11,096 bases of DNA from Candidatus Bathyarchaeota archaeon (lineage in GTDB: Archaea > Thermoproteota > Bathyarchaeia > RBG-16-48-13 > GCA-020355125): contig DAOVAG010000015.1 in NCBI GenBank assembly GCA_030671165.1, forward strand, positions 1 to 11,096, read 5' to 3'. Under the pieces are notes generated by a model that saw only the letters and a program-made list of their open reading frames with translations, did no database searches and was not told the DNA's origin. How positions within the stretch are numbered: position 1 is the stretch's first letter; each line of letters opens with the position of its first letter. Of the stretch, positions 1 to 11,096 are shown in pieces. A program made the translations under genes and the position numbers.

Positions 1-44
1 ATAGCTTTCTTTAACTCGTCTCCCAGATTAGACAGGTATCTCAT
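1..44 (-). CDS. Start of a probable fibre gene, truncated by the left edge
   Basis: Reading leftwards from the ATG at 44-42 gives an open frame of 14 codons (MRYLSNLGDELKKA) that leaves the window. It overlaps the end of the preceding coiled-coil gene by 17 bp in another frame. The same arrangement occurs at 4044-4063, where the other copy of the coiled-coil gene overlaps a 987-residue fibre gene that also starts MRY. By analogy this is the start of a second fibre-type gene, but no domain is visible. The MRY match carries little independent weight, because these bases also encode the conserved DEIP tail of the upstream protein. The true start could lie further downstream. Confidence 0.5.
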   Translation of the reverse strand, partial: MRYLSNLGDELKKA

Positions 45-804
45 CTCTTATTGTATATTTGACTAAAATCTCATCAAAAATAACTTCCGCTGTTGAGTTT
101 ACCTTTATATGAAATTTTTCTTGAAAACTTAAGTTTCTTATGCTTACATAGTAATAGCCACCATCTAAGAATGCAGAAACATTTTGTAAATAATCAGAAT
201 TACCTGCAAAATAAGTATAATTCTTATCAAATATAATATTTCCATCAACTAAAATCCATAAACCATAAGTAGATAGATTACATTTGATTAATATCTGGTC
301 TATAACACCAAAACCTTTCTGATTTACAATATCTAAGTCTCCATTGACCGTTTGATTATCTCTTATCTTGACTTTTGATGTAAAGACATTCTTGGTCTTT
401 ATACTATAATCATCTAATTTCCCATCAATGATAGCACAAATCATATCTCTCTGTTTATTTGAAAGAGTATGATAATATTGTTGTATCTTTTCTAATGCTG
501 ATTTGGTATTATCTGAGATTTGAGTTGTTATTAATGCCCATCTTTTACTGTAAGCATCCCTAATTTGAGATTGAAGGTCAGAGAGAGTGTTTAAACCTTG
601 TTGGAATTGTAGAAACTTATCTTCCCATACAGCATTCATTTTAGTAAGTCTTGCTCCGAAACTGACAAGTTCTTGCTTTTGAGAATCAAGTTCCTCAGTT
701 CTGAGAGTTTCTATTGAAGTCTTGGCTTCATTCCGTAATAGCTTTAACCCCTCAACGAAGTTATCTTCAAGTTCTTCTATTTGTTTATCCTTTTCGACAG
801 TCAT
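28..804 (-). CDS. Coiled-coil virion protein, copy B (paralogue of the gene at 4044-4694)
   Basis: This 258-residue protein has two parts. Residues 1-115 are charged and helical, with heptad-like Leu/Ile spacing, and look like a coiled coil. Residues 133-258 form a compact beta-rich domain that aligns along its whole length with residues 91-216 of the protein at 4044-4694. Shared landmarks are TSKV, a run beginning RDN, a segment ending IDQIL/INQIL, FDK followed two residues later by Y, and the tail DEIP. The helical part shares a short block (GLKLLRNE against GLRLMRDR) and is about 40-50 residues longer here. The start is the ATG at 804, with only a weak AGGT 12 nt upstream. It lies between fibre-type genes and its 3' end overlaps the next start, which suggests a tail or baseplate adaptor that anchors a fibre. 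That role is inferred. The family is not recognised by name. Confidence 0.75.
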   Translation of the reverse strand: MTVEKDKQIEELEDNFVEGLKLLRNEAKTSIETLRTEELDSQKQELVSFGARLTKMNAVWEDKFLQFQQGLNTLSDLQSQIRDAYSKRWALITTQISDNTKSALEKIQQYYHTLSNKQRDMICAIIDGKLDDYSIKTKNVFTSKVKIRDNQTVNGDLDIVNQKGFGVIDQILIKCNLSTYGLWILVDGNIIFDKNYTYFAGNSDYLQNVSAFLDGGYYYVSIRNLSFQEKFHIKVNSTAEVIFDEILVKYTIRDEIPV

Positions 805-838
805 TTAATTAAATATACCTATTTTTGCTTATTAATTT

Positions 839-1081
839 TTAGGGGATAGCATTAATTTTATCTATTTCAGCTTGTATAACAGCTTTTTGAGCATCTAATC
901 TGTTTATTTGGTCGTTATAGGTATCTAATTGTTGTTGTTTCTCTTGGGGAAATGTAAAGGTCTTTTTCTCTCCCTCTACGATAATTGTCTTTTCGAAGCT
1001 CTCCCCAATCTGTTGATAGTCTTCAACTACTTTAAACCCTAATGTTTGAGCAGAAGTTCGAATTACACTTTCTTCATTCAT
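839..1081 (-). CDS. Small protein of 80 residues with a C-terminal coiled coil
   Basis: I place the start at the ATG at 1081. A GTG four codons upstream (1093) is also in frame, but it lies inside the sequence AGAGGTG, which is the likely ribosome binding site nine bases before the ATG. The 80-residue product begins MNEESVIRTS. The middle (VEGEKKTFTF) looks like a beta-hairpin, and the last 30 residues are a Gln/Asp/Ile-rich amphipathic helix typical of a short coiled coil. No signal peptide, membrane segment or known motif is visible. It follows the large fibre gene with only 18 bases between its start and the fibre stop. It could be a fibre chaperone or small tail accessory protein; phage genes of this size often follow fibres, but nothing in the sequence proves a function. 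Confidence 0.7.
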   Translation of the reverse strand: MNEESVIRTSAQTLGFKVVEDYQQIGESFEKTIIVEGEKKTFTFPQEKQQQLDTYNDQINRLDAQKAVIQAEIDKINAIP

Positions 1082-1090
1082 TCTTTTTTT

Positions 1091-1097
1091 CACCTCT
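1091..1097 (-). promoter_or_regulatory. Ribosome binding site that decides the start of the 80-residue protein
   Basis: On the minus strand this reads AGAGGTG, a good complement of the 16S rRNA 3' end, nine bases before the ATG at 1081. It contains the GTG that would be the longest in-frame start, so that GTG is more likely part of the binding site than a start codon. Confidence 0.65.
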
Positions 1098-1099
1098 TT

Positions 1100-4063
1100 T
1101 TATTTAATAAATTCTTGTCTACTTCCTAAAGTATTGATTTCAATATGAACATCAAATTCTAAGAAAAATGCATCATTTGTATAATTATCGTTTGCGTGAG
1201 ATGAGTTTCTGAATAATCTACACACTAACATACTCGAAAGATTATATCCCGTTCCCGTAATTGTAGGAAATGGAGCTACTAAATGCTCTCTATCTGTTGA
1301 GTTAGTAGCGTCATCAATATAAATGATTGTAGTTGCTCCAAAAACTCCGTTAATATCTTGCCAAGTATATTCAAGACCCCATCTAACTGTTCCAGCAGCA
1401 GCATCAGAAGGAGTCCAATGAACATGGCACTCAATATCAGTTCCTTCTTTATAAGTATGTGGAATCTGAACTGTAAAGAATACTTCTTCTTCGTTTATTG
1501 CTAATGCTTGGTCGGAAAATGTGTAAGAATAAACGCCATTCATAAATGCTGTAAAACTTGGGTCTTTAATTCCCGCTAATTTAACAGAAAGAGCATTTAC
1601 TCTGACATCATCCCAAACAGTCTCAACAAGTTCGAGAGTCTTAGCTGTGCCACAATCAACTAAGAAATCTGATGGGTTTTGTAAATCTGTGGTTAATACG
1701 AAATTTGTGCCATTATATATGAGAGAAGTATCTAAACTTGCTCCAAGATATAGATTTAAACTATCACTCTTAATTACAAAATGCCCCGCTGTAAGAGCTA
1801 ATTGATTATTTACTGACCAATCTAATACTGGGTCGTTAGCTCCCGCATTAAAAATCATTAGATTAGGTTGTAATTGCATCTCAATCGCATTGGCAAAATA
1901 GAAATCTATCGTAGTGAGAGAATCTAAAGTGCCAATACCAAAGAAAGCACTCGCCATTTCACCTATTCTAAGTTCAGTCACCCCAATTCCAGCGTTATAT
2001 CTCCAAGTAGCTAATCGAGCAATCGTGCCAAAGCAACTATTTTCAAGTGTTGCATAATCTACTGTGGATTCAGCATTAGTAGTAAGTATTGATGCTAATG
2101 TTTGTGTTCCAGAAGGTCTTACTCCCAATACCGCCCCAACATTTGGATTTGCAGCGTTTTGTGGTTTAATAGTAAGAATATCAATAGCATTAAAAACGGT
2201 TGACCCCGAAAGTGCCATATATCCGTTAATCATTAAACCGCTATTCGGAGCTGTAATAATTTGTAGCGGGAAATCAACAACTTGGTTGTTCTCAATGGTC
2301 ATTATATTTACACCATCAATTCTAAAATCCATAGACCGCAGAGCAGAGCTATATGGTGTTTGGTTATCAAATACCATTGTTTTTCCTGAGTTTTCTACAC
2401 CCGACGACCTCTGTAATACCCAACCATATTCAGGATTATTGAACCCACCAAAAGCGGATATGAACTGATATGTAGCAATACCATTAAAACTTCTTATAGC
2501 AAAGTCATTCGACTGTGTCGGACTTGCCCAATATACATTCCCAAGTTCAATAAGGAATAAATTTTTAGTATCTTGAAAACAGCCATCCATTCCAAACTCC
2601 ACTGTGCCATCTTGGTCTCCTCCCGCTAAAGAACCACAACCCATATCAAATCTATAATTCTTGGCTTCTCCCGCATTTTGCCCAGTCGGAAATTCAATAG
2701 CATTACCGTTATTATTGTCGAGTTGTATCTGATGAGCTGCGAACACGCTTGGTGAAGGGGAGTTAGCATAATTATATGTTCCTGCTCCAATATGCCCATC
2801 AACAGCTACAATATCATCAAAGAAAGTATTAAGAATATCTCCCGTTGCTATCTCTGAAAAATAATTATTAGCAAAACCCGTAATAGAAATTTGATTTGAA
2901 GACGAATTTATTGTTCCCGTTCCCGATGTTGTATCCAAATAATAAATATAACCCGTTCCCGCTTTACCCGTAAGAGTAATACTATTAGCCATAATATTTC
3001 TCTCGACTATATCTCCACTTCCTTTATACCAATAAGTTGTTCCCGAATAAGATGCGTGAGTCATATTAAGTCTTGTAGTTGTATTCCCCGCAATCCAAAA
3101 AACTGAACCGTAGTCGGAAGAATCGTTAATAAAAATAACATCATCGTCAGAATCTCCAATATCTATTCTCCAATCGCAAGATGCCATTCCCAATTCTCCA
3201 CCATTTAGCTTTATTATCTCATGTGTGTTTGCTCCTACTTTATTACCACCGAAAGTATAATATGCTACACACGCTTGAAGAATTAGAGTGCCATCATCAA
3301 TATCCAAAGCTGTTGCTTTAGCCCCCGTATTAGCAGTTTGTATTAACATAAATGTCGTTATAAGTGCGTGTCTTCCATTATGTTGTTTAATTACAGTCGT
3401 TTCCGTATCTGCCAAAACAGGCACATTAAAAGCAACATTTTGAACTACACTATCAGAACTGAGATTATCAAATTCAATCATAGGGTTAGCTCCCGTATAC
3501 CAAAGAACTGTATCGGTTGCTCCTCCTGTTCCCCTAATGCTTGTATATTCTGGTAATTGAATAGTGTCTCCTACTGCATAAAAACCGGGAGATACTTGAA
3601 TTACATAACGCTTAATTATTGAACTGTCGGTGATGCTATCTGCCGCTGTTTTAATATCGGTAAAATCTCCACCACTCTTAGCAACAGTAATTATTTGTGC
3701 GAGGTCTTGATGCTCTCCAGCCACATAGTTAAGTAATGAATCATGGTCAATAGCTCCTACAAGAAGATGTTCCAAAGCATTATAATTTAATAATAGGTTA
3801 TGGTCAATATTAGTTTGGTCGACATCTAATTGTAGTGTTTCGTTAGCAGCGGGATTTAAAATAGTTTTTACTAATTTAGTAGAACCCATAACTAACTCAT
3901 CATCCAGCCACCCCTCAGTAGTGTCGGTTGCTGAGATTTTAACAGTAGAAATGGGTAGAGCGGCAATCTGAGCAGATAAATCGCTTATTGCTTTGATTAT
4001 TTCAATATCTACATTTTCATTTAGCATTAAATTCTTTAGATAATCACTCACGGGGTATCTCAT
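1100..4063 (-). CDS. Large tail-fibre-like protein (987 residues)
   Basis: Domains in order: a short helical N-terminus (1-40); a linker with STDTTEGWLDD-like and DHDSLLNYVAGEH-like segments common in phage fibres (45-120); a pectin-lyase-like region starting near 121 (AKSGGDF, then VIQVSPGFY and SIRGTGG), as in phage beta-helix fibres; a long repeat-poor beta-rich shaft rich in Gly, Ser, Thr and Asn; and a C-terminal domain from about 807 containing WDDVRV, a KDP segment, FFTVQIPHTYKEG, CHVHW and RWGLEYTW. I recall this C-terminal type in many phage and metagenomic proteins but cannot name a family. No catalytic residues of a polysaccharide lyase can be assigned. The ATG at 4063 overlaps the upstream gene by 20 bp and has AAAGG directly before it, too close for a normal binding site; a GTG four codons downstream is an alternative. 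Probable role: receptor binding. Confidence 0.8.
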   Translation of the reverse strand: MRYPVSDYLKNLMLNENVDIEIIKAISDLSAQIAALPISTVKISATDTTEGWLDDELVMGSTKLVKTILNPAANETLQLDVDQTNIDHNLLLNYNALEHLLVGAIDHDSLLNYVAGEHQDLAQIITVAKSGGDFTDIKTAADSITDSSIIKRYVIQVSPGFYAVGDTIQLPEYTSIRGTGGATDTVLWYTGANPMIEFDNLSSDSVVQNVAFNVPVLADTETTVIKQHNGRHALITTFMLIQTANTGAKATALDIDDGTLILQACVAYYTFGGNKVGANTHEIIKLNGGELGMASCDWRIDIGDSDDDVIFINDSSDYGSVFWIAGNTTTRLNMTHASYSGTTYWYKGSGDIVERNIMANSITLTGKAGTGYIYYLDTTSGTGTINSSSNQISITGFANNYFSEIATGDILNTFFDDIVAVDGHIGAGTYNYANSPSPSVFAAHQIQLDNNNGNAIEFPTGQNAGEAKNYRFDMGCGSLAGGDQDGTVEFGMDGCFQDTKNLFLIELGNVYWASPTQSNDFAIRSFNGIATYQFISAFGGFNNPEYGWVLQRSSGVENSGKTMVFDNQTPYSSALRSMDFRIDGVNIMTIENNQVVDFPLQIITAPNSGLMINGYMALSGSTVFNAIDILTIKPQNAANPNVGAVLGVRPSGTQTLASILTTNAESTVDYATLENSCFGTIARLATWRYNAGIGVTELRIGEMASAFFGIGTLDSLTTIDFYFANAIEMQLQPNLMIFNAGANDPVLDWSVNNQLALTAGHFVIKSDSLNLYLGASLDTSLIYNGTNFVLTTDLQNPSDFLVDCGTAKTLELVETVWDDVRVNALSVKLAGIKDPSFTAFMNGVYSYTFSDQALAINEEEVFFTVQIPHTYKEGTDIECHVHWTPSDAAAGTVRWGLEYTWQDINGVFGATTIIYIDDATNSTDREHLVAPFPTITGTGYNLSSMLVCRLFRNSSHANDNYTNDAFFLEFDVHIEINTLGSRQEFIK

Positions 4064-4694
4064 CCTTTATTATGTATTTTACTAACAAATGATTGAACAC
4101 GACAGATGTATCCGAATAAACATATATTCTAAAGTTTTTTTTGAAGTTAAGCGTTCTTATGCTCAGATAATACACCCCGTTATCCAAGAAACCAGAGATA
4201 TTCTCAAGATATTTTGAATGTTCAAAAAAGTAGCTATAATCCTTATCAAACATTACATTATCATCTACCATTACAAATATATGGAAATCGTTAGTTTGAG
4301 CTTCGCAGAGAATCTGATTGATTAAACCCATCCCACCCGCACTTGCTAAAGTCGTTCTATCTGTAACTGTTTCATTATCTCTCATTCGCACTTTTGAAGT
4401 ATAGACATCTTTCGTGTCTATTGTAATTTCGCTCATCTTTTTTTCTACTAACTGATTGATAAGCTCTACTTCTCCTTTAGTAAGCTTAGGAGAATATACA
4501 ATAGGTTTGTTCTCAATCTCATTCATGCGGTCTCTCATTAACCGCAATCCTCTGGTGAAAACATCGTTTAGATTATCTATTTTCTCATTTAGGAGATTAA
4601 TCTCTTTAGTGTCGCCTTGAATCTTCTCAACTTTCCCGTTCTTATCTTTCTGAGATAGTATATTGAGTAGAGTGAGAACTTTATCTGCTTCCAT
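4044..4694 (-). CDS. Coiled-coil virion protein, copy A (paralogue of the gene at 28-804)
   Basis: This 216-residue protein has a helical, charged N-terminal part (about 1-90, with one coiled-coil stretch around 28-62) and a beta-rich C-terminal domain (91-216) homologous to that of the protein at 28-804. The ATG at 4694 has no Shine-Dalgarno but lies about 26 nt from the centre of a TATA-like box, so the mRNA may be leaderless. Its end overlaps the fibre start by 20 bp, so the two are likely translationally coupled. The pairing with a fibre suggests an adaptor or fibre-base protein. The C-terminal domain resembles, in pattern only, small beta-sandwich domains found in tail proteins; no named family is claimed. 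Confidence 0.75.
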   Translation of the reverse strand: MEADKVLTLLNILSQKDKNGKVEKIQGDTKEINLLNEKIDNLNDVFTRGLRLMRDRMNEIENKPIVYSPKLTKGEVELINQLVEKKMSEITIDTKDVYTSKVRMRDNETVTDRTTLASAGGMGLINQILCEAQTNDFHIFVMVDDNVMFDKDYSYFFEHSKYLENISGFLDNGVYYLSIRTLNFKKNFRIYVYSDTSVVFNHLLVKYIIKDEIPRE

Positions 4695-4709
4695 ACATAA
4701 GAGTATGTA
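4694..4709. repeat. Perfect inverted repeat at the start of the copy A gene
   Basis: TACATA, a four-base spacer, then TATGTA. The repeat touches the first base of the ATG at 4694 and sits where a TATA-directed transcript would begin. It could be an operator or a small 5' hairpin, or chance in AT-rich sequence. Confidence 0.35.
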
Positions 4710-4716
4710 GATTAAC

Positions 4717-4724
4717 TATATAAA
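4717..4724 (-). promoter_or_regulatory. Archaeal-type TATA box for the copy A/fibre operon
   Basis: The minus strand reads TTTATATA, a close match to the archaeal TATA consensus. Its centre (4720.5) is 26-27 bases from the A of the ATG at 4694, the distance at which archaeal RNA polymerase starts. No Shine-Dalgarno lies in the 22 bases between, which fits a leaderless mRNA. No purine-rich BRE is visible upstream, because that stretch is T-rich. A bacterial -10 box cannot be excluded, but no TTGACA-like -35 is seen. Confidence 0.5.
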
Positions 4725-4731
4725 ATTAAAG

Positions 4732-4741
4732 AAAAAAAAAA
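4732..4741 (-). terminator. T-tract terminator after the 171-residue protein
   Basis: Ten consecutive T on the minus strand, followed after one C by three more T, begin 15 bases after the stop codon at 4756. No GC-rich hairpin precedes them, so a classical bacterial intrinsic terminator is not formed. Archaeal terminators are U-tracts without a hairpin, and the tract lies directly before the next TATA box. Confidence 0.5.
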
Positions 4742-4755
4742 GATATTTAAATTTT

Positions 4756-5271
4756 TTAAGGTGTATATAATTTACCAGAAAAACTACCGCCAATCTCTTC
4801 TCCGTTAACTTGAACTACTCCTAAATAAGCGTCTAAAGCATATAGGAAGAAATAAAGTGGCACACTTCCATCAGAATTGTCAATGACAATTAACGGAGCA
4901 ATTGTTCCCGTTTTTGATAGTGATAGTGTCGTTGGAATTTGACCTGCCCACATCTGAACAGCTCCCGCCATACCGCTAAATGGGTCAGCGAAAGTTGTGG
5001 TTGTAGCATAACCAACTCCTACTCCTTTAGCTCCCGCTTCTGAAGAGAAATCTAAACTGTAAATCTCTAAGACTTGACCCGCAGCAATCGTTAGCTGAAC
5101 TAATTCCGCATCTGAAGCTCCTAAAGGGTCTACACTTCCCTCGTCTCCAACAAAATCAATAGCATTCTGAATCATGCTTTTCTTTTCGATTAATTCACCG
5201 TTTTTATCGTATTCGAACTCGATAAACTTAACTACAAACTGGTCTCCAATTACATCATCAATTTTCGGCAT
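4756..5271 (-). CDS. Unrecognised small beta-rich protein, probably structural (171 residues)
   Basis: I do not recognise this protein. It begins MPKIDDVIGDQF and has a charged N-terminal third (about 1-35), then a Gly/Ala/Ser/Thr-rich body with alternating hydrophobic residues suggesting a beta-sandwich, and no cysteine. There is no signal peptide, membrane helix or catalytic motif. Its ATG directly follows the stop codon of the upstream gene (TAAATG) and is preceded by a near-perfect AGGAGGTG, so strong translation is expected, in line with a protein needed in many copies. The T-tract after its stop makes it the last gene of its unit. A minor virion or decoration protein is the most natural guess from position and composition. 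Confidence 0.7.
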   Translation of the reverse strand: MPKIDDVIGDQFVVKFIEFEYDKNGELIEKKSMIQNAIDFVGDEGSVDPLGASDAELVQLTIAAGQVLEIYSLDFSSEAGAKGVGVGYATTTTFADPFSGMAGAVQMWAGQIPTTLSLSKTGTIAPLIVIDNSDGSVPLYFFLYALDAYLGVVQVNGEEIGGSFSGKLYTP

Positions 5272-5757
5272 TTATCCTGACCCACCTCCTCTTGCGTAAT
5301 CCGTCACCTTAGTCACCACAGCAGGTTTAGAAGTTAACTGTTTGACAGTATATTTCCAACCCCAGAACCAAAAGTCGCATGTGACTGTATAAGATTTAGG
5401 ATTATATACATTGTATGCGGGATAATAAGGGTTCATAATGAAGATAGGTGTTCTGACTCCTTGTGGATAACCCGCATTTATGTAATTGAGTCTCTGCGTA
5501 ATTCCGTGTGGTGTCCAATGTGGCACACCTTCGGGGAATTGTAGCTGAAATTCAAGATAGCCATTCACAGCAACTCTCTCAATATGATAGAGAAATTCTC
5601 GATTTGGTTGTAAATCATCATCAAACTTTTGAACCGTGTTTGCAAGAGCTGCGAGAGAGACCGATTTCTTGAAAAAGAGAATATCAATCGAAGTTATTTG
5701 GTAAAATACATCGCCAATTTGAACATTGTGTCCTATTTTAAATTCATAATTCGGCAT
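5272..5757 (-). CDS. Unrecognised aromatic-rich protein, probably virion component (161 residues)
   Basis: I do not recognise this protein. It starts at the ATG at 5757, with AAGG about 11 bases upstream. It is notably rich in Tyr, Phe, Trp and Pro; examples are PHWTPHG, MNPYYPAYNVYNP and CDFWFWGWKY near residues 78-136. Such composition suggests a compact beta-fold with exposed aromatic loops, as in surface or binding proteins. Its C-terminus RGGGSG is encoded by the bases that also form the strong ribosome binding site of the next gene, so that glycine tail may be a by-product of the regulatory site. It is the first gene after the regulatory gap at 5758-5860 and is probably co-transcribed with the 171-residue protein. 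Confidence 0.7.
   Translation of the reverse strand: MPNYEFKIGHNVQIGDVFYQITSIDILFFKKSVSLAALANTVQKFDDDLQPNREFLYHIERVAVNGYLEFQLQFPEGVPHWTPHGITQRLNYINAGYPQGVRTPIFIMNPYYPAYNVYNPKSYTVTCDFWFWGWKYTVKQLTSKPAVVTKVTDYARGGGSG
5281..5290 (-). promoter_or_regulatory. Very strong Shine-Dalgarno inside the end of the 161-residue gene
   Basis: The minus strand reads AGGAGGTGGG, an almost perfect anti-16S match, with its AGGAGGTG core about 12 bases before the ATG at 5271. The spacing is slightly long; a second AGGAT lies four bases before the ATG. It is the strongest ribosome binding site in the window. Confidence 0.6.
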
Positions 5758-5799
5758 TTTAGAATAAACCTTGTGTTGTGTGTAATTGAATAATAGGCT

Positions 5800-5813
5800 T
5801 TTAAATATTTAAA
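5800..5813 (-). promoter_or_regulatory. TATA-like palindrome, probable promoter of the 161/171-residue genes
   Basis: A perfect 14-bp palindrome, TTTAAATATTTAAA, contains TTTAAATA on the minus strand (5813-5806). A start 26 bases from its centre would fall near 5783, giving a leader of about 26 nt that includes the AAGG before the ATG at 5757. Because it is a palindrome it could also act as a binding site. Promoter activity is inferred. Confidence 0.4.
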
Positions 5814-5818
5814 GGTTA

Positions 5819-5860
5819 TGTAGCTACAAATATAAAAATGTATATACAAATGTATTTACA
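5819..5860. promoter_or_regulatory. Three TGTAnnTACA palindromes, candidate operator cluster
   Basis: TGTAGCTACA (5819-5828), TGTATATACA (5839-5848) and TGTATTTACA (5851-5860) all fit TGTA-N2-TACA exactly. They sit just upstream of the TATA-like palindrome at 5800-5813 in the direction of transcription and directly after the stop of the cysteine-rich gene. Start-to-start distances are 20 and 12 bp. A dimeric regulator could bind here to activate or repress the downstream unit. The regulator is unknown. Confidence 0.45.
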
Positions 5861-6643
5861 TTAACCCCCAAATTCGCAATCGCATTGAGCATCAACACCG
5901 CAATCGGTATTACACAAACAATCATCATCGCAAGTGCAATCATAATTACACCCACAAAGATTATCACATATACAATGGGTATTACAGCCACAAACATCCT
6001 CACATTCGCAATAAAAAGAAGAATTTAACTCACAAGTGCAGTTGGCTGGACAATCAGCATCGCATATACAATGCCACCACTCGTCTCCACACATATCAAA
6101 CCAATGAGAATTACATAAACAAAGAGTATCACAAAGGCAATCTGTATTACAAGTGCAGTTAGTATCGCAAGAACATAGATGCTGACCAGAGCAATTTCCG
6201 CTATTACAATTACAAGCAGTTTCACAAGTGCAATTGCTTTCACAATTACAAAAGGTTTGACAAGAGCATTGAGCAACGCAACTACAAGCAAAAGAATCAC
6301 AATCGCATTGAGCTGCCATAACATCAATATCGTTATCGTAATATCTGAACATCTCTATTTTACCAGAGTCTATCGCATGTGGTGTTGTATCGGGAGCATC
6401 AACACCTCCATTATGAACTTCTACGCCTCCATCTGCTTCACAATAACAATGATGTTGATTAATAACACCATACATGATAGTTTCTATATCTAACCCTAAA
6501 ACATAACCAACTTCGTCTCCTTTAGTTGCTGAACTTCCTACTGGACTTGCTGAACCTCTTCTCGTATCTTCGTTATTAATTTTAGTAACTAAAGCGTTTA
6601 AATCTGAAGCAGTAATTACACTTCCTTTTGATATTGGACTCAT
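5861..6643 (-). CDS. Cysteine-rich CxCxxx-repeat protein with a phage-structural N-terminus (260 residues)
   Basis: Residues 1-32 (SKGSVITASDLNALVTKI, then NNE and RRG) resemble the N-terminal segment of many phage tail or fibre proteins. Residues 33-112 are ordinary and contain one CYC at 66-68. Residues 113-256 hold 42 of the 44 cysteines, mostly as CxC pairs every six residues: 120-146, 157-177 and 212-256 keep the period almost exactly, broken by a Trp-rich insert near 181-191. The other positions are mainly Asp, Asn, Glu, Thr and Ser, so the region is acidic and polar. There is no signal peptide or membrane helix. The ATG at 6643 overlaps the sulfotransferase stop by 4 bp (ATGA) and has GGTGAT eight bases upstream. 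The regular spacing suggests a disulfide-, metal- or thioether-stabilised solenoid. The adjacent modifying enzymes make it a candidate substrate; this is inference. A metal-binding protein is an alternative. Confidence 0.8.
   Translation of the reverse strand: MSPISKGSVITASDLNALVTKINNEDTRRGSASPVGSSATKGDEVGYVLGLDIETIMYGVINQHHCYCEADGGVEVHNGGVDAPDTTPHAIDSGKIEMFRYYDNDIDVMAAQCDCDSFACSCVAQCSCQTFCNCESNCTCETACNCNSGNCSGQHLCSCDTNCTCNTDCLCDTLCLCNSHWFDMCGDEWWHCICDADCPANCTCELNSSFYCECEDVCGCNTHCICDNLCGCNYDCTCDDDCLCNTDCGVDAQCDCEFGG
5876..6307 (-). repeat. 18-bp periodic coding repeat (CxCxxx hexapeptides)
   Basis: This stretch encodes residues 113-256 of the cysteine-rich protein, with TGY-NNN-TGY recurring every 18 bases. 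Units differ at the DNA level and use both Cys codons, so the pattern is held at the protein level and is not a recent tandem duplication. Two irregular segments (about residues 147-156 and 178-211) interrupt it. Confidence 0.75.
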
Positions 6644-7335
6644 TTAATAGCATCACCTACTAAATCAATAACATCTTGGTCTAAATAGTTTAAATAATCT
6701 CCTACAACTCCTTTTCTGAAAAAATATTCTGGTTTACCTTCACCATTATCTCTTCCTGTAACACTAAAAAAACTATTATTAATTATTATTTGATTCAATT
6801 CGGGGTCAGTTTTTACAATTTTAAGTAGAGAACAGATGTTTTGTAATTGAGTTATAGGAGTTAAATGTAAATCCTCATAGGTTAGAAGCATATAATTAGC
6901 GTGTGTATAACCATCATTATACATCTTCCATACCGCTGCTTCAAATTGATAACCTTTAGAAGAAAACGGAGAATCTTTAGCGTATTCGTTCACAAATGCT
7001 CTATCTGATAAAATTCCTTTAGTTCCATGCCACGCATCAACTTTAGTTGCTCCAGCATATTTTAATAAGAGATACCTTGATGTCATTATATCCCTTACAT
7101 CTCTCGTTATAGAGAAAACATAATCAGTCGCAGGAGTTATATATTTTATAATCGTTCTCGGTTCTACTCTGTGAAATATATAGATTTCGTTATCTGCCAA
7201 TTTCTCAACCTTATCTTGAATTAACTGTTCTGTCCAGCTAATTCTCTCCGTGATATGATGGAAGTCAGTCTTACCCATAATATCCTTCAATAAGCTACAT
7301 AGCCAATGCGTTCCTGCTCTGGGTTGGGTGGTCAC
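6640..7335 (-). CDS. PAPS-dependent sulfotransferase family protein
   Basis: Numbering from the GTG at 7335 (231 residues), all landmarks of the family are visible. PRAGTHW at 5-11 is the 5'-phosphosulfate loop (PKSGTTW in classical enzymes). His55 in IFHRV is placed like the catalytic His. RDVRDIMTS at 78-86 supplies the Arg and Ser of the 3'-phosphate site. YEDL is at 153-156, and FRKGVVGDY at 206-214 matches the RKGxxGDW motif. Such enzymes move sulfate from PAPS to a hydroxyl or amine of a glycan, tyrosine or small molecule; the acceptor cannot be read here. It overlaps the radical SAM gene by 41 bp and the cysteine-rich gene by 4 bp. The start is doubtful: the expected first beta-strand (residues TIRIYV in this frame) lies upstream of the GTG, the frame is open back to a TAG at 7369-7371, and there is no ATG, GTG or TTG start in between. 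Confidence 0.85.
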   Translation of the reverse strand: MTTQPRAGTHWLCSLLKDIMGKTDFHHITERISWTEQLIQDKVEKLADNEIYIFHRVEPRTIIKYITPATDYVFSITRDVRDIMTSRYLLLKYAGATKVDAWHGTKGILSDRAFVNEYAKDSPFSSKGYQFEAAVWKMYNDGYTHANYMLLTYEDLHLTPITQLQNICSLLKIVKTDPELNQIIINNSFFSVTGRDNGEGKPEYFFRKGVVGDYLNYLDQDVIDLVGDAIK

Positions 7336-8440
7336 ATATATTCTTATTGTTTTCTCCCCTTTTTTTTCCTAATTGATTTCTTTTTATTATTTCTTGAATT
7401 GCTCTATTTACTTCACTAAACATAAGGTTGTATTTCGCACTTTGGTAAAATGTATTATCGGCTAACTGTAAATTTGTGCCTTGACATAACTGAAACATAT
7501 AATTCGGATGTTGACCAGAATGATTCATCGTAGCGGAATACATTTTTTTGTGTTTTTTTAATCTATGGAATGAGTTATAAAGTTTAACATTTGTTAATTT
7601 ATCTGGTTCAAATACATTACCTAATTTAAAATCTTCTCTATTATGTTCTGTCGCTACTCTATGACAAGGATAAATATCCATCTTATCGTCAACAGCTAAT
7701 AAAGAAGTTCCTCCACCACATAAACCTCCTTTTCTGGTTATTATACTCAATAACAAAGCTTTCCTTTGTGCGAGAGTTAATCCTTCTTCTCTCATTACCC
7801 ATTCTTCTATTTCGTAATGCTGTTGTATGGCTATATCAATATCCTTATCTGTCCACTCCTCTTCAAATATTATTTGAAAAGTATTTTTATTGCAATCCTT
7901 TATTGCTCGTATTATCCCTTTTGGTTTAACCATTCTCCAATACCATTTAATAGATTCAGAGTAATAAGGAAGAGTTTTTTGAGTCACTACTCCATGTGTA
8001 GACCACTCAATACCATTATCTTGACAAGCCTTAATTCCCTTCATAACATCTGCATAACTACCTTTTCCGTTTGGATATTTTCTATGCATATCATGGGCTT
8101 TTTGCGTTCCATCTACACTAAACTGTATTCTACACCCTATTTTCTTTATTAAATCAATATTTTTAGGAACTAAAACACCATTCGTTATTAATGACTCTAT
8201 TCTAACTGGTGAGTTCTCAAATACATATTCAAGAACTTCAGGATTTAATAATGGTTCTCCTCCAAAGGGAAATACTTTACTAAATCCTCCTCCTTCTAAA
8301 TATTTCTTAACATCTTCTAACTTCATAGGTCGTGGTTCTTGGTCTACAAAACAATACTCACAACCTAAAGGACAATCTAATGTGAGCATTAAATCAACAG
8401 TATTTATATAATACCTATTATATTCTTCCAAATATCTCAC
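7295..8440 (-). CDS. Radical SAM enzyme with SPASM/twitch-like C-terminus
   Basis: The [4Fe-4S] cluster motif CPLGCEYC (Cys23, 27, 30; CxxxCxxC) is followed by FGGEP at 59-63, the SAM-binding GGE motif, then SLITNGV (83-89) and FSVDG (107-111), which mark the TIM-barrel strands. The C-terminal part has Cys241 (LCGGG), DIYPCHR with Cys259, LGN at 273-275 and Cys319. This resembles the auxiliary-cluster region of SPASM enzymes such as sulfatase-maturating enzymes and RiPP maturases, but has fewer cysteines than a full SPASM domain, so one auxiliary cluster is more likely than two. The likely role is radical modification of a peptide or protein. The gene overlaps its upstream neighbour by 23 bp. 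The GTG start at 8440 lies inside AGGTGAG, so a TTG at 8431 may be the real start; nothing essential is lost. The last 20 residues have no family counterpart that I recognise. Confidence 0.88.
   Translation of the reverse strand: MRYLEEYNRYYINTVDLMLTLDCPLGCEYCFVDQEPRPMKLEDVKKYLEGGGFSKVFPFGGEPLLNPEVLEYVFENSPVRIESLITNGVLVPKNIDLIKKIGCRIQFSVDGTQKAHDMHRKYPNGKGSYADVMKGIKACQDNGIEWSTHGVVTQKTLPYYSESIKWYWRMVKPKGIIRAIKDCNKNTFQIIFEEEWTDKDIDIAIQQHYEIEEWVMREEGLTLAQRKALLLSIITRKGGLCGGGTSLLAVDDKMDIYPCHRVATEHNREDFKLGNVFEPDKLTNVKLYNSFHRLKKHKKMYSATMNHSGQHPNYMFQLCQGTNLQLADNTFYQSAKYNLMFSEVNRAIQEIIKRNQLGKKRGENNKNICDHPTQSRNALAM
7360..7367 (-). other. A8 homopolymer at the radical SAM/sulfotransferase junction
   Basis: Eight A on the minus strand lie 42-49 codons... 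that is, about 65-72 bases before the radical SAM stop, and before the sulfotransferase GTG. Removing one A, or a +1 ribosomal shift, would join the radical SAM frame (NQLGKK) to GEKTIRIYVTTQPRAGTHW of the sulfotransferase without a stop, and would restore its missing first beta-strand. It may be a slippage site, a real or technical single-base indel, or irrelevant. Confidence 0.35.
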
Positions 8441-9341
8441 CTACTATTCTTACTAAATGAGGAACTTGATTATAAGTTCCCATTACTTTTTTATTTTGAT
8501 ATAAATCAAGAAAATAATTGCGTAATATAGGAATTGTGAAAATCTCTGGTTTTAAATCAATATATTGCCTTAATCTATTTAACTCTTTATTCGGTATGCT
8601 TTCACCATTATCATTCTTTCTCTTTTCTAAATCAAATAAGAGTTCATTATCCTCAAAAGCTTGTTTACCAGCATACATTTTTAAATCTGATGTTATATAA
8701 ACAGGTTTTTTATTTCTTCTCATATCTATTTCTATGGGATGTCTATGTTCTCGTTTATTTCCAGTAGATATGACCCAATTGGTTATCATATACATCCAAT
8801 TCTCAAACTCATGTAATTCATTAAAGGTCAGCTTCTCAAGACTCTCGTAATCAAAAGATAATTTGAAATGTCTTAAATATTTAGTAGTAAATGTATGAGC
8901 TATTTGTCTAGGAACTAATTTGTAGTTGTCATAATTTATTTTTAAATCAACCCATAAAGGATTATTCATTGTCCATTGTTTAAATCCCTTTATTTTGTTA
9001 AATAGTCGAGCATCTTTTACTTCTAAATCGGTTGTTATTTCAAATTGTCCTCTTAATCCTTCACATAAAGGAAATACATCATCTAACAATTCTGATTTTA
9101 TTAAGAGATTTATAGATACTTTATCGGTCATATATGACCTTGTAATAGCATCTGCGAATTGCTCAAACTCAAGAACACTATTTATAGGAATATGAACCAA
9201 TAATTTTCTATCTAATGCAAAATATTGTTCTACTTTACATCTTATAAATGTTTTAAAATCCTCAAATTCTATATCTGTAAATTTATTTAAGAATCCTTTA
9301 GCTCGAAATAAATCGGTAATGAAATCCTGTCGATGTATCAT
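8418..9341 (-). CDS. Unrecognised 307-residue protein, possibly a cluster-less radical SAM relative
   Basis: No named family is evident. The sequence has only two cysteines (35 and 93) and no CxxxCxxC motif. Its order of hydrophobic strands and helices nevertheless parallels that of the radical SAM protein it overlaps: LLVHIPI, VSINLLI, QFEITTDLE, WVDLKINYD and FKLSFDYE occur at spacings like the barrel strands, and LTFNELHEFENWMYMITNW resembles the helix ending in EEWVMREEG in the neighbour. A degenerate, catalytically dead partner or substrate-recognition subunit is therefore possible; this is a weak inference from pattern. Residues 195-307 are charged and unassigned. The ATG at 9341 directly follows the stop of the beta-helix gene (TAAATG), with GAGGT eight bases upstream, and the 3' end overlaps the radical SAM gene by 23 bp, so the proteins are probably made together. 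Confidence 0.7.
   Translation of the reverse strand: MIHRQDFITDLFRAKGFLNKFTDIEFEDFKTFIRCKVEQYFALDRKLLVHIPINSVLEFEQFADAITRSYMTDKVSINLLIKSELLDDVFPLCEGLRGQFEITTDLEVKDARLFNKIKGFKQWTMNNPLWVDLKINYDNYKLVPRQIAHTFTTKYLRHFKLSFDYESLEKLTFNELHEFENWMYMITNWVISTGNKREHRHPIEIDMRRNKKPVYITSDLKMYAGKQAFEDNELLFDLEKRKNDNGESIPNKELNRLRQYIDLKPEIFTIPILRNYFLDLYQNKKVMGTYNQVPHLVRIVGEIFGRI
8436..8442 (-). promoter_or_regulatory. Ribosome binding site overlapping the GTG of the radical SAM gene
   Basis: The minus strand reads AGGTGAG; the GTG inside it is the longest possible start (8440). If this is the binding site, the in-frame TTG at 8431, five bases after AGGTGA, is the start. No other good Shine-Dalgarno precedes the GTG. 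Confidence 0.45.
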
Positions 9342-11096
9342 TTAACTATACCTCGCTCCGTAGCTTGTGCCCGTTCCACTATCCAATATATCACCATCAC
9401 AGCCTTCATATTGATTGACTCCAATAACATTATTATTACAACCAGCACCATCAACATCTATTCCGTATTGGTCTCCGCCTCCACTATTGACACAGTTAGT
9501 AATTACATTATTAGCAATAAGATTATAATCACTAACATTCAAATGAATTGCTCCTCTGGTTGTTGCGTCAGCGGCATTACACGCATTTATTATATTACCC
9601 GAAATATTATGAGAACCACCCGTGCCAGTCAAATATATTGCTCTGTATAGACAATTGATTATTTCGTTATCTTGAACTCTATTTCTTAAAGCGTTGTGTA
9701 ATTGCATACCAGCTCCGCCATCGCAATTATCAATTATATTTCCTTGAATGAGATTACTATCGCTTTCACCGTATATTCCCATATATAAATCTTCAAATTT
9801 ACAGTTTCGTATAATAACTCCATTTGAGTTTAACTCTACACCTCTTCCGTTTGTGCCATCTCCCAACATTCTAACTCTTTCAATGACTACGGGGTTATCT
9901 GAACCTTCACTTACATCAATTACAGGTTGAGTAGTTGTCGATAAATCAGCAGCATCTACATAAAAATCTCTTAAAATTAAACTGTCACTACTTGTAATAT
10001 TAAATAATGCTTGGTCTCCTTGTAAATCAAAGATAGTAGCTAAACCCTCTCCTTGAATTGTCAGTTTTCCGCTTCCGTCTACATCAATAGTAGCTGTAAG
10101 TTGATATGTTCCCGCTAATACGGTAATAACACCTTGATTAGAACCAATTGCGTCAATAGCAGATTGGAGTTCAGCTATATTGCTTACTCTAAACTTCCAA
10201 TCTGGTCTAACTCCCGAATCAGCGTAAAATGGCAAATCACAACCCGTTGTGTTGTTATTTCTAACAAAAGTCAATTCGGCAAGATTATGTATATATAATC
10301 CATGTCCAACTCCTCCCGCTGTGCAGTAAGAACAATCATTATTGATAACGGTGTTATAGATTCCATCGTTCTCAATCATTATTCCATAACAGCTACCAGC
10401 CCCTCTAACAGTATAGCTACAATCATTCCCGTCAAATATATTATATTCTCCGTTTCTACTCCTAATACCCGCAAATGTGTTATAGCTAAAATCATTATGA
10501 TAAATATGATTTCGGTTAGATTCGTTCATATAAATCCCTGTGGAGTTATCGTCAGTTTTATTTCCATATATTATATTCCTATGAGCTGTGGATAACTCAA
10601 TTCCGTAAGCAAGGTGTTCAAAATAACAATTTCTCACTATATTATTACTACTATCTAATAAAATTCCAACTCCAAGCTCACCAGAAGTCTTTATAATGCT
10701 TACATTATCAATAATAACCCGATTATTACTTGCTTCAACAACAGAAATAGCTTTCGTAGTTCCTATTATACTTGTTGCGTCTATCTTAAAATCTTTTAAT
10801 ACTAAACCCGCACAATTAGTAATAGCAAATACAATAGAATCTCCATCGGGATTAATCTCAGTTCCAATCCCATTTCCCATAATGGTCATTGAAACTGATA
10901 CATCATTTATGGTGACTGGAAAACTCGTTTGACCAGTATCGTGAGTTCCTTCCATAAGATAAATAATTCCACCACCAGCAGCAACAACGGTATCAACAGC
11001 GTCTTGAATATCATCAGAACTGGGGTCTACAATCTCAGCGTGTCCTGCTCCCGCTCCAAGTATTTGATAAGTATCATCACAAAATTTTTTGGTTGC
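9342..11096 (-). CDS. Right-handed beta-helix (pectin-lyase-like) protein, 5' end missing
   Basis: The frame is open to the right edge: 47 codons precede the first ATG (10955), including GAGAGHAEIV and IQDAVDTVVAAGGGIIYLM, which is the capping start of a beta-helix. So the true start lies outside, and 584 residues are visible. Two tandem units can be seen. Unit 1 starts near in-window residue 30 and unit 2 near residue 305 (IAELQSAIDAIG, then ITVLAGTY). Each has the same order: opening helix, G-T-Y/H strand, IxGxG, LxLxDFxxDA, then NxIxxN-type rungs (NIIYGN, NHIYHND, NLIQGN, NRVQDN, NLIANN) as in NosD-like and pectate-lyase-3-like helices. The end DSGTGTSYGA resembles phage appendage proteins. 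No catalytic residues are assigned. Likely a tailspike, fibre or host-surface-binding protein. The name NosD would describe only the fold. Confidence 0.82.
   Translation of the reverse strand, partial: ATKKFCDDTYQILGAGAGHAEIVDPSSDDIQDAVDTVVAAGGGIIYLMEGTHDTGQTSFPVTINDVSVSMTIMGNGIGTEINPDGDSIVFAITNCAGLVLKDFKIDATSIIGTTKAISVVEASNNRVIIDNVSIIKTSGELGVGILLDSSNNIVRNCYFEHLAYGIELSTAHRNIIYGNKTDDNSTGIYMNESNRNHIYHNDFSYNTFAGIRSRNGEYNIFDGNDCSYTVRGAGSCYGIMIENDGIYNTVINNDCSYCTAGGVGHGLYIHNLAELTFVRNNNTTGCDLPFYADSGVRPDWKFRVSNIAELQSAIDAIGSNQGVITVLAGTYQLTATIDVDGSGKLTIQGEGLATIFDLQGDQALFNITSSDSLILRDFYVDAADLSTTTQPVIDVSEGSDNPVVIERVRMLGDGTNGRGVELNSNGVIIRNCKFEDLYMGIYGESDSNLIQGNIIDNCDGGAGMQLHNALRNRVQDNEIINCLYRAIYLTGTGGSHNISGNIINACNAADATTRGAIHLNVSDYNLIANNVITNCVNSGGGDQYGIDVDGAGCNNNVIGVNQYEGCDGDILDSGTGTSYGARYS

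Follow-up and report, generated by a model that had tools for sequence, protein, structure and literature searches.

A stretch of 11,096 nucleotides (positions 1–11,096, the whole of which is hereafter called the window) of a contig assigned to a Candidatus Bathyarchaeota archaeon carries on its minus strand four overlapping genes, encoding a 307-aa protein, a radical S-adenosylmethionine (radical SAM) enzyme, a sulfotransferase, and a cysteine-repeat protein. We regard this group, with a probability of about 0.6, as a virus-encoded protein-maturation cassette. The radical SAM enzyme and the Cys-repeat protein very probably form an enzyme–substrate pair, as had been proposed in a sequence-only reading of the window: their genes stand close together at all five loci of the clade that were compared at the DNA level, and the pairing recurs broadly in viruses. 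The system would be a known type of maturation, in which a radical SAM enzyme acts on Cys repeats, moved to viruses and joined, in the clade of the window, by a probable pseudo-radical-SAM partner.

Genes of the Cassette

All four open reading frames (ORFs) singled out by the sequence-only reading are present, with products of 307, 381, 231, and 260 aa, and they overlap in turn by 23, 41, and 4 bases. The 381-aa protein (7295–8440, minus strand) belongs to the radical SAM superfamily, scoring 66.2 bits against PF04055 (cut-off 29.5) and bearing the cluster motif CX3CX2C in the form CPLGCEYC at residues 23–30 (8351–8374, minus strand), with GGEP at residue 60. In an alignment of this enzyme with its 26 close relatives (27 rows, the clade alignment, after which scores fall from 193 to 90 bits), C241 and C259 are invariant and C319 is at least 90% conserved. 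The SPASM domain PF13186 was not found in the enzyme at E 1e-3. A full SPASM set comprises more auxiliary-cluster cysteines than three; judged from the sequence, the downstream set seen here is compatible with a twitch-like single cluster. Because PF13186 was not called and only three downstream cysteines are conserved, “twitch-like” is a safer label than the earlier “SPASM/twitch-like”.

By profile, the enzyme matches 54 NCBIfam families, the best being PapB (NF047865) at 116 bits against a cut-off of 340; TIGR04115 gives 74.2 bits (cut-off 350) and TIGR03906 (QhpD) 59.4 bits (cut-off 453), and 25 of the 54 families span many chemistries, all of them far below their cut-offs. The solved sequence closest to the clade profile is 5wgg (99 bits), which we take to be CteB, and the second closest is anSME, a formylglycine enzyme. 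The match with 5wgg starts at residue 101 of its chain; the window enzyme starts at the radical SAM core and lacks the preceding N-terminal stretch.

The 307-aa protein (8418–9341, minus strand) contains only Cys35 and Cys93 and hence has no CX3CX2C motif. Its predicted model matches the radical SAM/SPASM fold, the closest structure by fold being the thioether maturase of 5wgg/5why; against NCBIfam, including the pseudo-radical-SAM family TIGR04347, it gave no match at E 1e-3. Given this fold match of a predicted model, the protein, previously listed as an unknown, is most likely a pseudo-radical-SAM partner.

The 260-aa protein (5861–6643, minus strand), the proposed substrate, had been described as a 44-Cys protein with CxCxxx repeats, and this description is borne out: it contains 44 Cys and 20 CxC pairs, and 42 of the Cys are concentrated in a 150-residue tail (28%). 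The repeat tail (residues 113–256; 5876–6307, minus strand) comprises 12 overlapping CxCxxxCxC, whereas 10,000 shuffles averaged 0.78 and never exceeded 6. The repeat reads CxC[DENQ]xx, and the protein ends in CxCEFGG. The residue after CxC is D, E, N, or Q in 19/20 cases in the window and, at the related loci described below, in 25/28 (L002), 20/21 (L057), 7/7 (L004), and 12/19 (L003); each CxC[DENQ]xx repeat therefore offers the spacing [DENQ]xxC.

The first 110 residues of the Cys protein, partly helical in a poor model, contain a ITASDLNALVTKINNEDTRRG-like module, which may serve in recognition, anchor the protein in the virion, or do both. A profile of this N-terminal module, seeded with 13 Cys-rich proteins, found 30 ORFs over the fetched loci, of which 27 are Cys-rich with repeats of both the CxC and CXXX types, a share inflated by the Cys-rich seeds and by near-duplicates among the matches; in some ORFs the module lies C-terminal to the Cys region, at weak E-values (2e-4 to 4e-3). 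No Pfam family, metallothionein included, matched the Cys protein, such short repeats being hard for profiles, and it did not match TIGR04114, the CXXX-repeat target family. A tblastn search of phages and plasmids with the window Cys protein and searches of phages with three other Cys proteins gave no match.

The remaining gene (6640–7335, minus strand; 231 aa) indeed encodes a sulfotransferase, with 47.9 bits against PF00685 (Sulfotransfer_1; cut-off 22) and with what we take, by eye, to be 3′-phosphoadenosine-5′-phosphosulfate (PAPS) motifs.

Conservation of the Core Trio

Five loci of the clade were compared at the DNA level: the window, L002, L004, and L057, which are rows of the clade alignment, and L003, a scan match at 548 bits. 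All five have a radical SAM gene with a Cys-protein gene nearby, all encode a protein homologous to the 307-aa one, and they form one set, with 100/100 support, on a tree of 85 radical SAM proteins. The window has the sulfotransferase gene between the radical SAM and Cys genes, and the rearranged locus L004 contains two radical SAM genes. Two viral contigs were picked up by the Cys protein alone, and both also carry a radical SAM gene. A single-protein scan of viral contigs with the window radical SAM enzyme gave no match, and a search of 398 genomes of the phylum with the clade profile at E 1e-30 found only the window and a distant radical SAM gene (L061), in whose 3.5 kb there is no Cys-repeat ORF.

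The sulfotransferase is less constant. L002 has two such genes, both after the Cys gene, and BLAST with the window copy found none at L003, L004, and L057. Because BLAST had missed one of the two L002 genes, Pfam was run on the ORFs, again finding none at L003 (ten ORFs), L004 (eight), and L057 (two, the contig ending 0.66 kb after the radical SAM gene). Found only in the window and L002 (2/5 loci), the sulfotransferase is thus an accessory gene and not part of the core. The search for the four-gene neighbourhood of the sequence-only reading accordingly leaves a conserved trio: the sulfotransferase keeps its identity but not its place in the set.

The Pairing in Other Viruses

A scan of viral contigs with the clade alignment yielded 55 loci, 56 with L057, and 43 after dereplication at 90% radical SAM identity. 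The radical SAM gene has a Cys gene (at least 8 Cys per 40 residues) no more than 5 kb away at 4/4 loci scoring 400 bits or more, 11/12 at 100–400 bits, 3/5 at 70–100, 8/12 at 50–70, and 0/10 below 50; four of the 50–70-bit positives (L025, L029, L037, and L045) are weak, with 8 Cys in 40, and at L007 the radical SAM gene itself was counted as a Cys ORF beside two true ones. At 9 Cys per 40 residues, the 31 loci that score above 55 bits, those below being left out, contain 26 Cys genes. Sixteen of these genes adjoin the radical SAM gene (shuffle mean 5.2, maximum 12 in 2,000 shuffles), and 25 lie no more than two genes from it (mean 9.0, maximum 17).

Ten more distant radical SAM enzymes, used as queries, gave 394 relatives, the best 80 of which represent 59 distinct loci at 90% radical SAM identity; a Cys gene lies within three genes at 46 of the 59. 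The two viral sets share several contigs. As a control, 120 stretches picked by one tail-fibre-like motif (1.11 Mb, 1,261 genes), which are shorter than the best-80 stretches (mean 9.3 vs 14.4 kb), contain one radical SAM gene and no Cys-repeat gene. The class of radical SAM/Cys pairs is larger than the sequence-only reading saw. In the stretches of three human-gut records (L063, L064, and L066), a radical SAM gene was found and a Cys-repeat ORF was not.

The repeats are of the types CxCxxx, CNCNYx, CxCxxRT, C[EQ]xx, CxxC, CTCT, and C[SGT]xx, the residue after Cys varying between the classes. On the radical SAM tree (125 proteins, reduced to 85 by dereplication at 85% identity), repeat types taken as a whole follow the enzymes, with 29 changes compared with a shuffled mean of 50 and none of 200 shuffles as low. 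Most of this signal is due to C[SGT]xx, CNCNY, CTCT, and “none”, the last label (23 of the 85 rows) including loci with a sub-threshold Cys gene, e.g., L010.

Some loci show further features. At L009, L021, L023, and L034, five or six radical SAM genes per stretch lie around Cys-repeat genes, which suggests several modifications of one product. The Cys proteins of seven loci (L019, L021, L023, L032, L034, L038, and L051) end in an SDxRLKxxI-like motif, presumably the start of a tail-fibre chaperone domain. Small CxxCGKCC proteins, which we assume to be YkgJ-like and which have no Pfam match, are encoded directly after the Cys gene in L002 (12014–12870) and L003 (11891–12307) and may be an additional factor, for maturation or for metal. 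CTCTCT Cys tails following HxH-pair modules are found beside radical SAM genes at L018 (6126–6701) and L020 (9403–9978) and look like a distinct metal- or link-forming variant.

Cultured Phages

In all six cultured phages examined (Salmonella phages STsAS and SPN3US; Erwinia phages Asesino, Huxley, and Wellington; Cronobacter phage CR5), two CXXX-repeat ORFs are flanked by a virion structural gene on one side and by two radical SAM genes on the other. The best family of the SPN3US radical SAM enzyme (L068, 7001–8329) is TIGR04115, at 125.6 bits and below the cut-off of 350. A gut-phage Cys protein (L067) passes TIGR04114 (21.3 bits, cut-off 20); one of the SPN3US Cys proteins reaches 19.6, just below, and the other has no match. 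The SPN3US ORF at 4133–4525 of L068 (JN641803, 143828–144220, reverse strand), which encodes 130 aa with 21 Cys, has no annotated coding sequence. The annotated start of its neighbour, gp166, is later than the ORF start found (4609 vs 4536).

Three papers on SPN3US (PMC5105663, PMC5694885, PMC10052503) were searched in their main text, and neither gp163–gp167 nor, in the passages found, a discussion of the radical SAM enzymes turned up. One published set of SPN3US spectra was, according to the accessible text, searched with fixed Cys carbamidomethylation against a local database of 273 sequences (PMC10052503). Because this modification was fixed, peptides with blocked Cys could have escaped the search; the database itself may have held the unannotated Cys-repeat gene.

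No description of a viral radical SAM enzyme acting on a Cys-repeat virion protein was found among titles and beginnings of abstracts in the open literature, most subscription papers and preprints lying outside; what comes closest there are reviews on bacteria and genome notes on phages in which radical SAM genes are mentioned. Within that literature, the earlier statement that no such viral system has been described holds, but the pairing was already there, unremarked, in cultured jumbo phages.

Viral Context and Host

The window is the stretch 1–11096 of contig C14 in a 227-contig, 1.18-Mb bin with a completeness of 77%. The beta-helix and fibre surroundings noticed earlier are confirmed: upstream of the cassette is a beta-helix protein (9342–11096, minus strand, 5′ end off the contig; Pfam Beta_helix, E 3.7e-28), and downstream are fibre-like genes. 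L003, a 111-kb IMG/VR viral contig, has homologues of several window genes flanking its own cassette. As in the window, a beta-helix homologue lies upstream, and a homologue (29% over 161 aa, E 1.6e-24) of the protein encoded at 5272–5757 (minus strand) lies downstream; the structural-looking protein at 4044–4694 (minus strand) has two homologues in L003 (46% over 125 aa and 30% over 124 aa). L002 (99.5 kb) encodes a Baseplate_J protein (60.1 bits) 3.3 kb downstream of its Cys gene. The window is read as viral because of the neighbours shared with L003 and the Baseplate_J gene near the L002 cassette. The products of 28–804 and 4044–4694 are paralogues with a common C-terminal domain (RDNxTV ... 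FDKxYxYF ... IRDEIP-like), and each of their genes adjoins a fibre-like gene.

Ribosomal protein L21e marks the bin as archaeal: in the control it matched 4 of 14 genomes, and each of the four is an archaeon. An archaeal small-subunit rRNA model gave no match in the bin, and the small-subunit control also matched bacteria. The contig of the related locus L057 was binned to Candidatus Prometheoarchaeum. An archaeal host of the window virus is likely rather than certain, because the binning of viral contigs is no proof. In L057, a gene preceding the cassette (8082–8765) matches Tad4, a Thoeris inhibitor family (54.1 bits, cut-off 25), which hints at an anti-defence gene in an Asgard-archaeal virus.

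Relation to Known Systems

In the CXXX-repeat system (TIGR04115 maturase, TIGR04114 target), as in the window, a radical SAM gene is found beside the gene of a protein with fixed-spacing Cys repeats; the window differs in having CxCxxx instead of CXXX repeats, in being viral, and in its probable pseudo-radical-SAM partner. PapB, CteB (SCIFF), and the NxxcA maturase have the closest radical SAM domains, by profile (PapB) and by solved sequence (5wgg), and the thioether of NxxcA, placed between Asn20 and Cys23 in the accessible part of the report (PMC8326336), has the spacing of the window [DENQ]xxC. Ranthipeptide maturases act on a short precursor, whereas the candidate substrate in the window is a 260-aa protein without a CX3D register. 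QhpD, the quinohemoprotein amine dehydrogenase maturase, is a radical SAM enzyme that places thioethers in a whole protein (PMC8172795, available text). It thus resembles the window proposal in having a whole protein and not a short peptide as a target, but that target is one defined enzyme subunit, while the window's would be a repeat tail. SPN3US and its Erwinia and Cronobacter relatives likewise have radical SAM genes beside Cys-repeat genes next to virion genes; they differ in their CXXX repeats of the S/G/T type and in their place on the radical SAM tree.

Proposed Mechanism and Alternatives

According to the proposed mechanism, the target of the radical SAM enzyme would be the Cys-repeat tail that forms part of the 260-aa protein. 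This protein probably belongs to a tail appendage or to another part of the virion; its location in the virion we consider rather probable. The 307-aa protein would be a catalytically dead subunit of radical SAM fold that probably binds the N-terminal module of the substrate and hands the repeats over to the active enzyme. The modification would most likely consist of several intramolecular thioethers, one per repeat, joining the Cys sulfur to a side-chain carbon of the D, E, N, or Q three residues earlier ([DENQ]xxC), the chances of thioether chemistry being about even. The product would be a covalently stapled repeat rod, which might serve as a stable, protease-resistant appendage, and the sulfotransferase could add an optional further modification.

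Several observations weigh against this scheme. The radical SAM kinship of the 307-aa protein rests on a second structural aligner, because hhalign of its family with the radical SAM alignment gave no signal and Foldseek with its model found nothing under E 1e-3; for the Cys protein there is no usable structure (predicted local distance difference test, pLDDT, 34). The window repeat CxC[DENQ]xx is not in the Cys-X3-Asp register for which PapB is reported to be strict (PMC8172795). V follows CxC in 7/19 cases in L003, and the [DENQ]xxC rule fails in jumbo-phage repeats (4/102) and hardly fits the CxCxxRT class (3 CxxxC in total). At 13 of the 59 distinct loci from the best 80 of 394 relatives, a Cys gene is missing from the three-gene neighbourhood of the radical SAM gene, and the labels CxC, RT, C[EQ]xx, and “other” are singly not clearly clustered on the radical SAM tree (for CxC, 8 changes vs a shuffled mean of 9.6, with 25 of 500 shuffles as low). 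The co-occurrence check suggested by the sequence-only reading came out well from the radical SAM side, where Cys genes are enriched, but the test in the other direction has little force and is in part negative, because real-looking Cys repeats (by eye) occur without a radical SAM gene in the fetched stretch at L219, L222, L264, and L271. In that converse scan, generic Cys-spacing DNA patterns gave at least 120 matches for each of two patterns, mostly of low complexity by eye, and 5 of 51 in-frame ORFs (at least 90 aa; four loci) among the matches listed share their stretch with a radical SAM gene. No modified product is reported in the parts of the literature examined.

The enzyme might modify the Cys protein otherwise than by thioethers, through C–C cyclophane formation, epimerisation, formylglycine-type Cys oxidation, or cluster loading. 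Such chemistry would accord with the 25 diverse families matched below cut-off, with anSME as the second closest solved sequence, and with the variable residue after Cys; it is nevertheless unlikely, as Cys at fixed spacing is the constant element over the repeat classes and the thioether maturase 5wgg/5why is the closest solved enzyme, to the radical SAM protein by sequence and to its partner by fold. The radical SAM enzyme could also have another target, in which case the tail would resemble metallothioneins, bind a cluster, or form a rod of oxidised disulfides. Metallothioneins are Cys-rich with CxC pairs, like the tail with its 28% Cys (42/150), so that free CxC repeats could bind metal instead, and the hosts of the cultured phages are aerobic, which would permit disulfides there. 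The absence of a Pfam match, which such short repeats could escape, the tight coupling to radical SAM genes, the lack of Cys-repeat genes in the 120 control stretches, and the tracking of the radical SAM tree by the repeat types as a whole make this quite improbable.

Finally, the sulfotransferase and the radical SAM enzyme may belong to a glycan or cofactor pathway that decorates host or virion sugars, with the Cys protein as a bystander in a fibre cassette. The position of the sulfotransferase gene between the other two would fit, as would the Campylobacter phages, whose 11–12 radical SAM genes are discussed as metabolic in the available text (PMC2853527) and among which CP220 has no Cys-repeat ORF near the radical SAM gene examined. 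With the sulfotransferase at only 2/5 loci and the radical SAM–Cys pair persisting without it, we hold this to be very improbable and prefer the maturation of the Cys-repeat protein by the radical SAM enzyme.

Implications

It is tentatively proposed, at somewhat less than even odds, that archaeal and bacterial tailed viruses share an undescribed maturation strategy, in which radical SAM cyclases staple the Cys repeats of a particle protein with a common helical module, assisted in one archaeal-virus-like clade by a pseudo-radical-SAM docking subunit that lacks the cluster. The result would be a ladder of carbon–sulfur links, at [DENQ]xxC in the window, and the particle proteins would be virus-made structural proteins that resemble ribosomally synthesized and post-translationally modified peptides (RiPPs), with enzyme and repeat type co-evolving. 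SPN3US offers a testable case, since amber mutants and particle mass spectrometry exist for it, according to the accessible parts of its literature. If the maturation of Cys repeats by viral radical SAM enzymes is true, viruses build covalently reinforced particle parts by radical chemistry, many viral radical SAM genes that are now filed as metabolic oddities would gain a function, and these enzymes would be naturally occurring peptide cyclases that act on large proteins at multiple sites.

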